Of a DNA stretch of 64,000 nt, positions 13,992 to 26,380 are shown piece by piece. The stretch is from Pseudomonas fluorescens. GTDB taxonomy: Bacteria; Pseudomonadota; Gammaproteobacteria; Pseudomonadales; Pseudomonadaceae. Made by a program: the position numbers and the translations under genes. The notes beneath the pieces were generated by a model, which saw only the letters and a program-made list of their open reading frames with translations, did no database searches and was not told the origin of the DNA. The DNA lies in NCBI RefSeq assembly GCF_019212185.1, contig NZ_CP078138.1, positions 664,501-728,500 on the forward strand, read 5' to 3'. Position 1 is the first letter of the stretch. Every line of letters starts with the position of its first letter.

Positions 13992-15112
13992 TGCAATTGG
14001 CTTTTGTGCTGTACAAATATTTCCCGTTTGGCGGCCTGCAGCGCGACTTCATGCGCATTGCCCTCGAATGCCAGCAGCGCGGGCATCAGATTCGCGTTTA
14101 CACGCTGATTTGGGAAGGCGACATCCCGCCCGGTTTCGAAGTGCTGGTTGCGCCGGTCAAGGCCATCTTCAACCATCGGCGCAACGAAAAACTCAGCGCC
14201 TGGATGGCTGCCGACCTGGCCAAGCGTCCGGTGGATCGCCTGATCGGCTTCAACAAAATGCCCGGCCTGGATGTGTATTACGCCGCCGACGGTTGTTTCG
14301 AAGACAAGGCGCAGAACCTGCGCAACTCGCTGTACCGGCGCTGGGGCCGCTACCGCCACTTCGCCGAGTACGAGCGGGCGGTGTTCGCCAAGGACGCGAA
14401 AACCGAAGTGCTGATGATCTCCGAAGTCCAGCAGCCGCTGTTCATCAAGCATTACGACACGCCCCTGGAACGCTTCCACTTGCTGCCGCCGGGCATTGCC
14501 CAAGATCGCCGGGCGCCGCCGAACGCAGCCGAGATTCGCGCGGATTTCCGTCGTGAATTCGCCCTCGCCGATGATGACTTGCTGCTGGTGCAGATCGGTT
14601 CCGGGTTCAAGACCAAGGGCGTCGATCGCAGCCTCAAGGCCCTGGCCGCATTGCCTGCCGAGCTGCGCAAACGCACCCGGCTATTTGTAATTGGCCAGGA
14701 CGACCCCAAAGTATTCCAATTGCAGAGTGCCGCATTGGGCTTGGGCGACAACGTGCAGTTTCTCAAGGGGCGCAGTGATATCCCGCGTTTCCTGTTGGGC
14801 GCCGACCTGTTGATCCACCCGGCGTACAACGAAAACACCGGCACCGTACTGCTCGAGGCCCTGGTCGCTGGTCTGCCGGTGCTGGTGAGTGCGGTGTGCG
14901 GCTACGCGCATTACATCGCCGAGGCCGACAGCGGCCTGGTGCTGGACGAGCCGTTCGACCAGGCGCAACTCACGCAGTACCTGACGACCATGTTGAGCGA
15001 TGACGCCGCACGTGCGGCCTGGAGCCGAAATGGCCTGGCATTCGCCGACACGGCCGACCTTTACAGCATGCCGCAGCACGCGGCGGATGTAATTCTGGCG
15101 GAGCACCATTGA
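13991..15112 (+). CDS. waaG: LPS core glucosyltransferase I
   Basis: 373 residues, GT4 family (GT-B fold). It transfers the next hexose onto heptose II; in Pseudomonas this sugar is a galactosamine derivative rather than glucose, so the substrate named for E. coli may not apply. The N-terminus MQLAFVLYKYFPFGGLQRDF is typical of WaaG, and the GT4 donor motif ENTGTVLLEAL is present near residue 280. The ATG at 13991 overlaps the waaC TGA; a TTG one codon earlier is not needed. Confidence 0.95.
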   Translation: MQLAFVLYKYFPFGGLQRDFMRIALECQQRGHQIRVYTLIWEGDIPPGFEVLVAPVKAIFNHRRNEKLSAWMAADLAKRPVDRLIGFNKMPGLDVYYAADGCFEDKAQNLRNSLYRRWGRYRHFAEYERAVFAKDAKTEVLMISEVQQPLFIKHYDTPLERFHLLPPGIAQDRRAPPNAAEIRADFRREFALADDDLLLVQIGSGFKTKGVDRSLKALAALPAELRKRTRLFVIGQDDPKVFQLQSAALGLGDNVQFLKGRSDIPRFLLGADLLIHPAYNENTGTVLLEALVAGLPVLVSAVCGYAHYIAEADSGLVLDEPFDQAQLTQYLTTMLSDDAARAAWSRNGLAFADTADLYSMPQHAADVILAEHH

Positions 15113-15918
15113 TGAAGCTGATTCTGGCCGAGCCCTTCAAGAGCCTGTGGGCTGGACGCGATGCGTTCCACGAAGTCGAAGGCCTGCAGGGCGAGGTCTA
15201 CCGCGAGCTGGAAGCGCGCCGCACCTTGCGCACCGAGGTGGCCGGCAACGGTTTCTTCGTGAAAATTCACCGCGGTATCGGCTGGGGCGAGATCTTCAAG
15301 AACCTGCTCACGGCGAAACTCCCTGTGCTTGGCGCAGGTCAGGAGTGGCGGGCGATTCAGCGCTTGCAGCAGGCCGGCGTACCGACCATGACGGCGGTCG
15401 CCTATGGCGAGAAAGGGCGCAATCCGGCTGACCAGCACTCCTTCATCATTACCGAGGAATTGGCGCCCACCGTCAGCCTCGAAGATTTCAGCATCAACTG
15501 GCGCATGCAGCCGCCGGAGCCCCGACTCAAGCGTGCGTTGATCGACGAAGTGGCGCGCATGACCGGCATGATGCATCGCGCCGGGGTCAACCATCGTGAC
15601 TGCTACATCTGTCACTTCCTGCTGCACACCGACAAACCGGTGACGGCGGACGATTTCAAATTGTCGGTCATCGACCTGCACCGCGCTCAGACCCGTCCGG
15701 CGATTACCAAGCGCTGGCGCAACAAGGATTTGGCCGCGCTGTACTTTTCAGCCTTGGACATCGGCCTGACCCGACGCGACAAACTGCGCTTTCTCAAGGG
15801 CTACTTCATGCAGCCGCTACGCCAGATCCTGCGCGAGGAAGCGTCGTTGCTGGCCTGGCTGGAAGGCAAGGCGAACAAACTGTACGAGCGCAAACAGCGC
15901 TATGGGGATGCGCTCTGA
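15112..15918 (+). CDS. waaP: LPS core heptose(I) kinase
   Basis: 268 residues, the usual length for WaaP, which phosphorylates heptose I and is essential in P. aeruginosa. The kinase fold is visible: FFVKIHRGIGWGEIFKNL with Lys51, the catalytic loop HRDCYICHFLL (H161-D163) and IDLHRAQ as metal-binding segment. The ATG overlaps the waaG stop (ATGA) and its own stop overlaps the next kinase gene. All catalytic residues are present, in contrast to the following gene. Confidence 0.96.
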   Translation: MKLILAEPFKSLWAGRDAFHEVEGLQGEVYRELEARRTLRTEVAGNGFFVKIHRGIGWGEIFKNLLTAKLPVLGAGQEWRAIQRLQQAGVPTMTAVAYGEKGRNPADQHSFIITEELAPTVSLEDFSINWRMQPPEPRLKRALIDEVARMTGMMHRAGVNHRDCYICHFLLHTDKPVTADDFKLSVIDLHRAQTRPAITKRWRNKDLAALYFSALDIGLTRRDKLRFLKGYFMQPLRQILREEASLLAWLEGKANKLYERKQRYGDAL

Positions 15919-16670
15919 TGACTGATTTCCTCGCAGCGCAGGATCGCGAACTGTTCGAACGTCATGGCCTGAACAGCTTTGATGCCCTGTGGGAGCGACA
16001 GCTTGAAGCCGTCGACGAACCCAATACCGATGGCGGTGGCTGGAGCAGTGTGTTCCGCCTTGATCTTGATGGCCGCGGCTACTACCTCAAGCGTCAGAGC
16101 AACTACCTCACCCGGACACTGCATCGACCGTTCGGCGAACCGAGCTTCGCCCGTGAGTTCCGTAATATCAGCCGTTACCGGCAGTTGGGTATTCCTGCTC
16201 TGGAAGCGGTGTTTTTTGGTGAACGCAAAGTGGCCGGCGAAGTCCGGGCGATCCTGCTGACGCGGGCTCTCGATGGCTGGAGCGACCTCGATGCGCTGCT
16301 GCAAGATTGGCCGCAGCTCAGTGCGGCGCAACAGACTGCGATCCTGCAGGCCTGTGGTGCGCTCGCCCGGCAGTTGCACGGGGTGCGTCAGGTGCACGGC
16401 TGCTTTTATCCCAAGCACATTTTTCTGCAGGCCGACGGCGAGCGCTATCGGGCGCAACTGATCGACCTGGAAAAAACTCGGCCCCTGCTGTTTGGCCAGC
16501 GTGACCGGGTGAAGGACCTCGAGCCGTTGCTGCGCCGTGCGCCCGTGTGGAGCGCCGACAACGTGCGCACCTTGTTGGCGACCTATCTGGATCAGCCCGC
16601 CGACAGTTCGCTGGTGGATGCCTGGCTTGGGCGCCTGTCGGCCCGGCGCAGTCACAAGGGAGCGCGTTGA
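15918..16670 (+). CDS. WaaP/InaA-like LPS kinase-fold protein lacking the catalytic Asp
   Basis: 250 residues, InaA/Kdo-kinase type fold, in the place of the small LPS kinases of the P. aeruginosa core operon (PA5007/PA5008 region). The nucleotide-binding Lys is in GYYLKRQ (K58) and the metal-binding Asp in LIDLEKTR (D183). In the catalytic loop the sequence is VHGCFYPKHIFL: compared with HRDCYICHFLL of WaaP, the base Asp is Cys162. It may be a pseudokinase or use another residue. Start ATG overlaps the waaP stop; stop overlaps the next start, so it is translationally coupled. Confidence 0.85.
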   Translation: MTDFLAAQDRELFERHGLNSFDALWERQLEAVDEPNTDGGGWSSVFRLDLDGRGYYLKRQSNYLTRTLHRPFGEPSFAREFRNISRYRQLGIPALEAVFFGERKVAGEVRAILLTRALDGWSDLDALLQDWPQLSAAQQTAILQACGALARQLHGVRQVHGCFYPKHIFLQADGERYRAQLIDLEKTRPLLFGQRDRVKDLEPLLRRAPVWSADNVRTLLATYLDQPADSSLVDAWLGRLSARRSHKGAR

Positions 16671-18106
16671 TGCGTTTGTCTGAATTGAAAAACGCCGGGC
16701 GCACACCGTCTCTGCCGTTGAGCCTGGAATTGGCTGATGCGGCGGGTCCTGCTCAGTTGCAACTGCTCAGCCTGCTGCGGGTGCTTCCCGGTCAGCGTTA
16801 TGTCGGCGCGGGCGTTTGGCGCGGTCGTCCGGTGCTGGCCAAACTGTTAGCCGGTGGCAAGGCGGCGCGGCACTTTCAGCGTGAACTGGACGGTGTGCGC
16901 CTGCTCGCAGCGCAGAACCTGACCACGCCCTTGTTGCTCGCCGATGGCTTGAAAGAGGGTGAGGGCGGCTGGTTGCTGTTCGAGCTGCTGGAAGGTGCGC
17001 AAAGCCTGGGCGATGCCTGGAAGCAGGTCGAGACCCTGCCGGTGCTGGCGGATGAGCAGAGCGCAGTGTTGGCCGAAGCGCTAACCGCCGTCGCGCAGAT
17101 GCACAGCAAGGGCCTGTGGCAGTCCGACCTGCACTTGGACAACCTGCTGCGTCATGGCGGCAAACTGTATTTGATCGACGGCGCCGGGATTCATGCCGAA
17201 ACCGCCGGCCAGCCGTTGTCGCGAGATAAGGTCCTGGAAAACCTCGGGGTGTTTTTTGCCCAGTTGCCCAAGTCGCTGGAGCCGTTCACTGAAGAGCTGC
17301 TGGTGTATTACCTGCTGAGCAACGCTGAGCATGCGCTGCCGCTGGAAGCCCTGCAAAAGCAGGTGGATAAGGTGCGCAGTTGGCGCCTGAAAGACTTTCT
17401 AATCAAAGTCGGCCGCGAGTGCTCGCTGTTCAGCGTGCAGCGCACCGCCTTTGTCCTGCGGGCGATTCGTCGCGAAGAGCAGGCGGCCATGCTACCCGTG
17501 CTGGAACAGGCCGATGCCCTGCTGGACCAAGGTCATCTGTACAAAACCGGTGGTGCGGCGAGTGTTGGCAAGGTCGAGGTGGCGGGGCGCACGCTGGTGG
17601 TCAAGCGCTACAACATCAAGGGCTTCGCCCATTGGCTCAAGCGCTTCTGGCGCCCGAGTCGCGCCTGGCATTCGTGGCGCGAAGGCAATCGCCTGACCTT
17701 CCTCGGTATCGCTACGCCCAAGCCGCTGGCATTGCTGGAAAAGCGTTTTTTCTGGCTGCGCAGCCGCGCCTACCTGATCACCGAATACCTGCCGGGGCCG
17801 GACATCATCGAGCGCTTCGCGCCCTACGTTGAGCGGGGCGACGCGCCGGAAGCCGAACTGCAGGCGCTGGACCGACTGTTCGCCGAACTGATCGCCGAGC
17901 GCATCAGCCATGGCGACTTTAAGGGCCACAACCTGTTCTGGGATCAGGATCGCTGGTCGCTGATCGACCTCGACTCGATGTGCCAGCATCGGACCCAAGG
18001 CAGCTTTGCGCCCGCCTACGCACGGGATCGGGCGCGGTTCATGCGCAACTGGGCCGAGGATTCGGCGCTGTACCGAGTGATCGATCAGCGCTTGCCGCGG
18101 TTGTAG
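16670..18106 (+). CDS. Tandem LPS kinase-fold protein (two kinase domains in one chain)
   Basis: 478 residues, matching the size of P. aeruginosa PA5006. Two kinase folds follow one another. Domain 1 (about 45-175) has VLAKLL (K58), the loop QSDLHLDNLL (D153, N158) and YLIDG (D170). Domain 2 (about 295-440) has LVVKRYN (K312), SHGDFKGHNLFW (D416, N421) and LIDLDSM (D433). Both halves keep the residues needed for phosphotransfer. Likely role: phosphorylation of inner-core heptose together with WaaP. It starts at the ATG overlapping the preceding stop; an in-frame extension upstream overlaps the previous gene and is not used. Confidence 0.85.
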   Translation: MRLSELKNAGRTPSLPLSLELADAAGPAQLQLLSLLRVLPGQRYVGAGVWRGRPVLAKLLAGGKAARHFQRELDGVRLLAAQNLTTPLLLADGLKEGEGGWLLFELLEGAQSLGDAWKQVETLPVLADEQSAVLAEALTAVAQMHSKGLWQSDLHLDNLLRHGGKLYLIDGAGIHAETAGQPLSRDKVLENLGVFFAQLPKSLEPFTEELLVYYLLSNAEHALPLEALQKQVDKVRSWRLKDFLIKVGRECSLFSVQRTAFVLRAIRREEQAAMLPVLEQADALLDQGHLYKTGGAASVGKVEVAGRTLVVKRYNIKGFAHWLKRFWRPSRAWHSWREGNRLTFLGIATPKPLALLEKRFFWLRSRAYLITEYLPGPDIIERFAPYVERGDAPEAELQALDRLFAELIAERISHGDFKGHNLFWDQDRWSLIDLDSMCQHRTQGSFAPAYARDRARFMRNWAEDSALYRVIDQRLPRL

Positions 18107-24579: not shown

Positions 24580-25680
24580 ATGAGTATCCTCAATGTCATG
24601 TGGTCCGGCGGCTCTGCCTTTGCCTCCATCCACAAGGTTCATCGGCAGTTGCTTGACCAGGTGGAGCCGTCCACCGCGATCAATACCTGGCTGCTGTGCG
24701 GCGATGCGCAAGGTTGTGCCGCCGCCTTCGGCGAGACCCGTGAGTGGCGCCTGTCTTCCAGCCGGCTCAAGGGTAAGCACCTGTGGAAATTTCTGGTGCC
24801 GAGCATGCAGGCCCGCTTCTACCAGGCCCTCAAAGGCAGTGATGTGCAGGTGGTCTTGCTCGACGGCCTGGGCACGGCGCGGGCGCTGTTGCCCGCTTTG
24901 GGAAAAATCCCGCACCTGCGTGCCGTGGTGATGTTCCATGGGGAAACCCGCATTCGCCCGGCCGATCTTACGCTGCTCGGACAATTTGATCCCTCCCGAC
25001 TGACCCTCGCCGCCGTTTCGCAAACCCTGGCTGATTCGCTGCACCGCGATCTGCGGATGCCTGTGGTGGCAGTGCGCGGCGCGCTTGATCCGGTGGATTT
25101 CCGTTCGCGACTGTTGACACGCGAACAGGCAAGAAGCCGCCTTGCGTTGCCAGCCGGAGCGCCGGTAGTGGGGGCGGTGGGGCGCCTGGTCGACAACAAG
25201 GGCTTTGGTTGTCTGATCGAAGCCTTTGCCACCGCCCGACAACAGCAGCCGCAACTGCGCTTGGTGATTGTCGGCGAGGGGCGTGCGCGACCCGCGCTGC
25301 AAGCTCGCATCGATCAGCTTGAGCTGGGCGACGCCATCACGCTGCCGGGTCATCTGGATGATGTCGCCACTCTTTACCCGGCGTTCGACTGGGTGGCGAT
25401 CCCCTCGCTTGAAGAAGGGTTGGGGCTGATCCTGCAAGAGGCCGTGCTGGCGGGCGTTCCGGTGCTGACCACGGATCTTGCGGTGTTCCGCGAGCAACTG
25501 GCGGACGCCGGATGGTACGTTCCCGCGCAAGATGAACGTGCCTGGAGTGCGGCGTTGATCAAGGCGTTAAGTGTCGCACCCGGGCAGATCGCGATGGCCC
25601 AGTCCGCGGTACTTTCGGCGCAAAGCGCCTGGCTGGAATTTAGTCAGGCTGCCCGTGAATTATTGTCAGGCCGCCAATAG
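24580..25680 (+). CDS. GT4 glycosyltransferase of the LPS outer core (WapR position)
   Basis: 366 residues from the ATG at 24580; an in-frame ATG at 24556 gives eight more residues, neither with a strong ribosome binding site. GT-B fold with VGAVGRLVDNKG and the donor motif PSLEEGLGLILQEAVLAG. Its place before the kinase and waaL matches PA5000 (WapR, an alpha-1,3-rhamnosyltransferase in P. aeruginosa), but the specificity may differ. The 3' end overlaps by 15 bases the convergent kinase-like gene on the other strand. Confidence 0.85.
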   Translation: MSILNVMWSGGSAFASIHKVHRQLLDQVEPSTAINTWLLCGDAQGCAAAFGETREWRLSSSRLKGKHLWKFLVPSMQARFYQALKGSDVQVVLLDGLGTARALLPALGKIPHLRAVVMFHGETRIRPADLTLLGQFDPSRLTLAAVSQTLADSLHRDLRMPVVAVRGALDPVDFRSRLLTREQARSRLALPAGAPVVGAVGRLVDNKGFGCLIEAFATARQQQPQLRLVIVGEGRARPALQARIDQLELGDAITLPGHLDDVATLYPAFDWVAIPSLEEGLGLILQEAVLAGVPVLTTDLAVFREQLADAGWYVPAQDERAWSAALIKALSVAPGQIAMAQSAVLSAQSAWLEFSQAARELLSGRQ

Positions 25681-26271
25681 GGATTTCGCCAATGCTTGCA
25701 TTGGAAAGCTGTCGTTCAGCTTTTCCCGCTCAATATATCGCGCGAAGTGTTGCAGGTTGCGCTTGACTAGATGAGGGGGCAGCGGCCCGCGAGTGAAGCG
25801 CATGTCGGCGACATCAATCAGACCGTATTGGTTATCGGGCGTTACCACGATGTTGCCCAGGTGCAGGGAGCGGAAGTAGACCCCGGCGGTGTGCAGCTCA
25901 CGAATGAATTTGCTCAACGCAGGCAATGCCTGTTGCCAGTCGAAACCTTCTTTGTTGGCAATCTGGCGCAGGGTCTCGCCGGGCAGGGGACGGTACAGCA
26001 CCGCCGTCATTCCGGGCGTTTCCAGTCGATGAAACTTGAGGGCCTGAAGGGTCGGGATACCGCGTTTTTCCAGCTGCAGGGCGTTATCGATGAAGCGTTT
26101 GGAATACGGGCGAAATAGTGCCGAAGACAGCAGGCGCTTGCGGCGAAACAGCTTGAGAATGTTACCGTCCGGCAGCAGGAAGACTTTCGGGCCGAAGCTG
26201 TCGGCTTCAAGTACTCTGGCGCCTTCAACCATCTGATTTAACGCGGCATGGGAAAGCCGGAAGCATTGCAT
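25666..26271 (-). CDS. Small kinase-fold protein ('toluene tolerance' type) lacking the catalytic Asp
   Basis: 201 residues from the ATG at 26271, chosen because AAGG lies eight bases upstream; an upstream ATG at 26304 would add 11 residues but has no such site. It is the counterpart of PA4998 and of proteins annotated as toluene-tolerance or LPS kinase. K40 (ILKLF) and the metal-binding D153 (LIDVADM) are kept, but the catalytic loop reads YFRSLHLGN: aligned with QSDLHLDN of the tandem kinase, the base Asp is Ser135. It is the only gene in this locus on the opposite strand, divergent from waaL. Confidence 0.82.
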   Translation of the reverse strand: MQCFRLSHAALNQMVEGARVLEADSFGPKVFLLPDGNILKLFRRKRLLSSALFRPYSKRFIDNALQLEKRGIPTLQALKFHRLETPGMTAVLYRPLPGETLRQIANKEGFDWQQALPALSKFIRELHTAGVYFRSLHLGNIVVTPDNQYGLIDVADMRFTRGPLPPHLVKRNLQHFARYIEREKLNDSFPMQALAKSLLAA

Positions 26272-26380
26272 GTAGGGAGCCTTGTAGAAAAATGGGGCGT
26301 GCATGCGATCAATGATGCCGAAAAGTTGTTGTTTTAACCATGCCGTGATGGCAGTCGGATTTTTCAGCGGGAGCGGTTAG

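Follow-up and report, generated by a model that had tools for sequence, protein, structure and literature searches.

The core lipopolysaccharide (LPS) cluster of Pseudomonas fluorescens lies within the 64,000-nucleotide window analysed here (positions 664,501 to 728,500 of contig NZ_CP078138.1, assembly GCF_019212185.1) and includes a 250-amino acid (aa) gene of the wapQ type, whose product lacks the catalytic Asp of the core kinase WaaP. From its sequence we predict WapQ to be an Asp-independent, atypical core transferase of the InaA branch and not an obligate activator of its neighbours, a proposal that we regard as evenly poised between right and wrong. The first-pass annotation of this DNA had interpreted the protein as inactive itself, with a role in activating or scaffolding the kinases encoded around it; the feature that it pointed to is real and family-wide, but this local interpretation is misleading. 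The genome is a single contig of 6.34 Mb rated 100% complete, and the cluster in the window carries waaF, waaC, waaG, waaP, the 250-aa gene, a 478-aa gene and a carbamoyltransferase gene. The name WapQ was assigned from gene order and the gene table in PMC8005017, and gene order alone, with wapP or waaP on one side and the PA5006-type gene on the other, places it among the wapQ orthologues.

The HRD triad of WaaP is H161-R162-D163. D163 was found in all 100 WaaP sequences from Pseudomonas loci, and K51, E78, H161, D163, Y165, H168, D188, H190, R191 and D206 were kept in 99-100 of these 100 loci. WapQ has H160-G161-C162, with Cys in place of the HRD Asp, together with K58, E80, H160, Y164, H167, D183, E185, K186 and D200; the nucleotide, metal and substrate residues essential to WaaP, Asp apart, all have counterparts in it. 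Compared with the P. aeruginosa WaaP structure (6DFL), Asp163 is replaced by Cys162, His190 by Glu185 and Arg191 by Lys186, and a (D/E)xPN stretch ahead of the glycine loop of WapQ has no match in WaaP. C162 was kept in 91 of 92 Pseudomonas WapQ sequences taken from loci, the sole exception appearing to be L035, and in 120/120 of the closest WapQ homologues and 119/119 InaA homologues among the matches listed. Both L035, where wapQ is split over two frames, and L097, where it is cut short, may reflect a sequencing error or a real break. The alignment across Pseudomonas proposed with the first-pass annotation therefore bore out Cys162, as it did Ser135 of the PA4998-type protein described below; all the residues that the annotation had named were found in the sequence and are conserved across Pseudomonas loci, not chance occurrences.

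Beyond the close homologues, position 162 in 18 distant InaA-like open reading frames (ORFs), which come from 17 regions in 16 genomes outside the window's own, was occupied by Cys in 14, Ala in two, Ser in one and Lys in one, and never by Asp. K58, E80, H167, D183 and E185, the acid two residues past D183, were present in 18/18. Six catalytic-site positions other than 162 were invariant over 63 rows. The InaA branch also conserves an acid (33) and an Asn (36) ahead of the glycine loop, and Lys or Arg occupied position 166 of the catalytic loop in 91/92 WapQ, 119/119 listed InaA homologues and 16/18 distant members. L272, a poorly aligned row in which 24% of the columns are filled, is perhaps not an InaA. 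A local quirk or sequencing error as the origin of Cys162 is ruled out by the readings in WapQ, InaA and the distant members, and Cys itself as a required replacement is ruled out by the Ala, Ser and Lys found in its place.

WapQ matched the Kdo/WaaP family (Pfam PF06293) with 199.3 bits over a cut-off of 21.3, and scored 79.6 bits on the NCBI InaA equivalog model NF007383, below its cut-off of 235; on these profiles it is a relative of InaA, not InaA itself. It shares the HxCxYx(K/R)H and DxEK motifs of that branch: E. coli K-12 InaA (b2237, 'putative lipopolysaccharide kinase') contains HGCCYVRH and DLEK, and the InaA gene of the window genome, which lies in another part of the chromosome, encodes HSCLYIKH. 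In a tree of 75 rows WapQ and InaA grouped together (support 96/98), with WaaP adjoining (96/73). Since WapQ and InaA form one clade, a single loss of the Asp, in the common ancestor of the InaA/WapQ branch, is probable. Unlike wapQ, E. coli inaA is a stand-alone gene outside the core-LPS cluster, which holds WaaP and WaaY, and is controlled by the mar and sox systems (PMC9301823). Of 274 genomes from the class, 17 gave a match in a profile search, the window's own included. Among 17 regions from outside the genus, one of which is only 4.5 kb long, 12 showed no other kinase of the models used near the InaA-like gene. Another gammaproteobacterial core cluster (L268, 7766-9400) has two adjacent InaA-like genes by waaP, wapP and the tandem kinase gene, one with a divergent HGCLHDYH loop.

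The distribution of the gene argues for a protein that its neighbours can do without. Across 398 Pseudomonas genomes, WapQ was detected in 384 and WapP in 383; WapP alone was lost in six, WapQ alone in five and both in nine (one of the nine only 73% complete), leaving 20 without one or the other or both. WaaP was present in 149/149 genomes; 100/100 Pseudomonas loci, among them all eight without WapQ, had both WaaP and the tandem kinase. The four loci which had lost only WapQ kept WaaP, WapP and the tandem kinase, and are scattered on the tree, each with close kin that retain WapQ. WaaP, WapP and the tandem kinase do not require WapQ, because losses of WapQ alone leave all three in place. An obligate activator would always accompany its client and WapQ does not, though presence and absence bear on obligate pairing only. 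Six near-complete genomes (G006, G070, G079, G141, G169 and G334) have retained WaaP and the tandem kinase but neither WapP nor WapQ, nor the PA4998 type nor any InaA-type match; the tree includes four of the six, in a single clade.

The window genome itself has no wapP, a kinase gene that usually lies between waaP and the 250-aa gene and whose absence the first-pass annotation had overlooked. The usual order in 100 other Pseudomonas loci is waaP, wapP (244 aa, 95/100, a count that leaves out a wrong-frame ORF in L061), the 250-aa gene (92/100) and the 478-aa gene (100/100). Like WapQ, WapP (PA5008 type) belongs to the same operon and matches PF06293 (for example in G097); unlike WapQ, it has the catalytic Asp, D158, in 96/96 rows, one of which is the wrong-frame ORF. 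When the window was set against five loci with wapP, the end of waaP was seen to meet the start of wapQ directly, as if wapP had been removed exactly from ATG to ATG. The same abutment occurs in the P. kielensis locus L141, also without wapP. A contig scan covering 80 of 580 confirmed matches, all Pseudomonas, found a wapP motif upstream of wapQ in 78/80, L141 being a real exception and L173 being set aside because its slice presupposed a fixed offset; its pattern included the Cys, so it was not used for Cys conservation. The closest WapQ proteins, from G297 (91%) and G251 (89%), both belong to genomes without WapP. Relocation of wapP elsewhere in the window genome was ruled out, the search returning the three known relatives and two matches, at E 0.09 and 0.29. 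The gene has been reported, at second hand, as essential in P. aeruginosa (PMC6147952), and three heptose kinases are said to be present in all Pseudomonas genomes (PMC8005017). Its absence from 15 of 398 genomes, one of them 73% complete, indicates that essentiality in P. aeruginosa is no rule of the genus, and no earlier report of natural WapP loss was found in the literature searched. In seven loci (L060, L078, L093, L100, L101, L103 and L104) waaP and wapP are separated by an additional ORF, about 320-340 aa long and heptosyltransferase-like by eye; in L060 the frame is longer, 598 aa.

As an enzyme, WapQ would still bind Mg-adenosine triphosphate (ATP) and would transfer a phosphoryl (or nucleotidyl) group onto the nascent core without an HRD Asp. 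Candidate stand-ins for that residue are E185, the acid invariant in the D-x-E motif, or else the acid at 33, and the protein may be one among several that modify the core, alongside WaaP, WapP and the tandem kinase. An unusual enzyme appears likelier than a dead helper because the branch without the Asp keeps most other active-site residues. There are precedents in POMK, a sugar kinase with migrated catalytic motifs, and SelO, an AMPylase (PMC10211241). Several points weigh against this proposal. The D163A substitution in WaaP gives no growth, so loss of the Asp disables the closest active relative of WapQ, and the effects of wapQ deletion are described at second hand as relatively minor (PMC8982409). 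No report of activity, ATP binding or acceptor of InaA or WapQ was found in the literature searched. The tandem kinase, which retains its HRD-type Asp, has an acid equivalent to E185 (D435, two residues past its DFG-type Asp, 99/100), and E185 is hence not specific to members lacking the Asp. Among the distant members Y164 is kept in only 13/18 and H160 in 16/18; the samples lean to Cys, the profile having been built on Cys-bearing rows and the InaA-like calls made with it; and the tree program warns that the join of WapQ/InaA with WaaP links long branches and may be false.

A true pseudokinase, binding nucleotide and aiding another core kinase or the core-assembly complex, perhaps as a non-obligate partner, is a rather unlikely alternative. 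By the definition in PMC12599244, loss of at least one of the beta3 Lys, HRD Asp and DFG Asp makes a pseudokinase, and both WapQ and the PA4998-type protein lack the HRD Asp, as the first-pass annotation had stated, the inactivity itself being a prediction from sequence. Moreover, wapQ is translationally coupled to waaP and to the tandem kinase gene, and PA5006, the P. aeruginosa tandem kinase, made contact in a two-hybrid assay with a membrane transporter, with a lipoprotein and with itself (PMC8707732). The co-absence of WapP and WapQ (Fisher p 1.5e-11, in genomes that are not independent) also favours a helper, but these shared losses may reflect either a common pathway or single deletions of neighbouring genes, and a single clade holds all four loci that lack both. 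The idea of a helper is further weakened by the separate losses of WapQ and of WapP, by the constant pair of WaaP and tandem kinase, by the clade-wide absence of the Asp even in stand-alone genes such as E. coli inaA or those far from any other modelled kinase, and by the invariance of the six catalytic-site positions, which exceeds the needs of a pure scaffold.

Other enzymatic readings differ in the group transferred or in its acceptor. WapQ has been counted among the core-LPS kinase genes, once as a heptose kinase (PMC6147952, PMC8005017), and the core of P. syringae pv. phaseolicola carries phosphates at HepI 2 and 4 and HepII 6 (PMC8005017); yet an ordinary hydroxyl kinase of core heptose, with neither Asp nor replacement residue, appears improbable given that D163A abolishes WaaP function and that the E. 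coli core cluster, with its WaaP and WaaY, does not include InaA. When the acceptor is a phosphate, it is ionised from the start and no catalytic base is required. Were WapQ and InaA phosphate-on-phosphate kinases, converting the monophosphates made by WaaP and WapP into core di- and triphosphates, a dropped Asp, a retained ATP/metal site and a Lys or Arg at 166 would follow. The Pseudomonas core is reported to carry di- and triphosphates (PMC8005017), and no enzyme for them was found named in the literature searched. We give this reading only a small chance too, considering the WaaP D163A result, the minor wapQ phenotype (PMC8982409) and the position of E. coli inaA, a gene under mar/sox control, outside the core cluster. 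Slimmer still is the chance of a repurposed kinase fold that transfers a non-phosphate group, such as adenosine monophosphate. SelO, which has no classic catalytic Asp (PMC3281104), is a pseudokinase and uses inverted ATP for AMPylation (PMC10211241), and the conserved acid 33 and Asn 36 could suit such a role. SelO and other HRD-less folds share with WapQ the loss of the HRD Asp. However, sugar kinases are the closest kin and fold of WapQ, and WaaP-type substrate residues are retained in it. An atypical transferase acting on the core thus remains our preferred reading of WapQ.

The genes around wapQ (Table 1) do overlap, as the first-pass annotation had it, though not by ATGA: the waaG-waaP, waaP-wapQ and wapQ-478-aa junctions are one-base TGATG overlaps, and it is the wapP-wapQ junction of the five other loci compared that has ATGA. 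In L074 waaP is split, by a sequencing error or a real break. The annotation's two kinase domains in the 478-aa protein are supported by the motif residues of both halves, D153 and D170 being present in 100/100 members of the family and D416 and D433 in 99/100 (one gap). The best Kdo/WaaP stretch covers residues 308-445, and a second stretch was counted by profile search; the Pkinase match over residues 68-170 fell under its cut-off.

The PA4998-type gene had been taken as a fourth member of one coupled locus. It is uncoupled from the operon, since it lies 7.5 kb downstream on the opposite strand, behind six ORFs which by Pfam encode a carbamoyltransferase, three glycosyltransferases, a Mig-14 family protein and a PIG-L deacetylase. 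Its type was assigned from the adjoining waaL/msbA and from PSPTO_4985, which bears the same name, 'toluene tolerance protein'. Its motif is Y-F-R-S135-L-H-x-x-N, with Ser at the HRD Asp position in 67/67 and in 120/120 sequences; a pattern reading over 15 loci gave ten calls (Ser six, Asp three, Gly one), the pattern having landed elsewhere in the other five, the window's own included. K40, H137, N140 and D153 are invariant; none of the acids in the helix spanning residues 56-69 is. An in-frame upstream ATG occurs at 26304, and the 3' end overlaps a convergent glycosyltransferase gene by 15 bases (25666-25680). The protein scored 14.9 bits on PF06293, below the 21.3 cut-off, and has the Bud32/PRPK fold. 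Bud32/PRPK carries a catalytic Asp in its catalytic loop, whereas the PA4998-type protein lacks both the HRD Asp and a conserved helix-C acid. A single event behind both Asp losses was ruled out, WapQ and the PA4998 type standing far apart on the tree, on long branches. The protein would be a separate case, a Bud32-like fold with an independently lost Asp, most likely binding nucleotide and serving the same core pathway.

Table 1. Kinase-like genes and the waaP-wapQ junction in the window (coordinates are those of the window)
Feature	Coordinates	Strand	Evidence
waaP, core heptose(I) kinase, 268 aa	15112..15918	+	RfaP model, 454.3 bits (cut-off 170)
wapQ-type gene, 250 aa, InaA branch of Kdo/WaaP family	15918..16670	+	Profile, alignment, tree, gene order
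waaP-wapQ junction, usual site of wapP	15916..15920	+	TGATG overlap; compared with six loci
PA5006-type tandem kinase, 478 aa, D153/D170 and D416/D433	16670..18106	+	PA5006 type by gene order
PA4998-type kinase-like protein, 201 aa, Ser135 for HRD Asp	25666..26271	-	Position next to waaL/msbA, and name

WapQ and InaA are already known genes, annotated as LPS kinases. No mention of their missing Asp was found in the literature searched, which left most subscription journals outside; the search gave no paper treating InaA together with a pseudokinase, nor, among the matches listed, one doing so for WaaP. In a family named for lipopolysaccharide kinases, present in 17 of 274 genomes of the class and in E. 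coli, the Asp vital to WaaP is gone and the ATP/metal site has stayed constant. Either the kinase fold holds here a new catalytic solution, or a non-enzymatic role has been conserved within core-LPS biosynthesis, and E. coli inaA together with a viable wapQ deletion makes the question readily testable.
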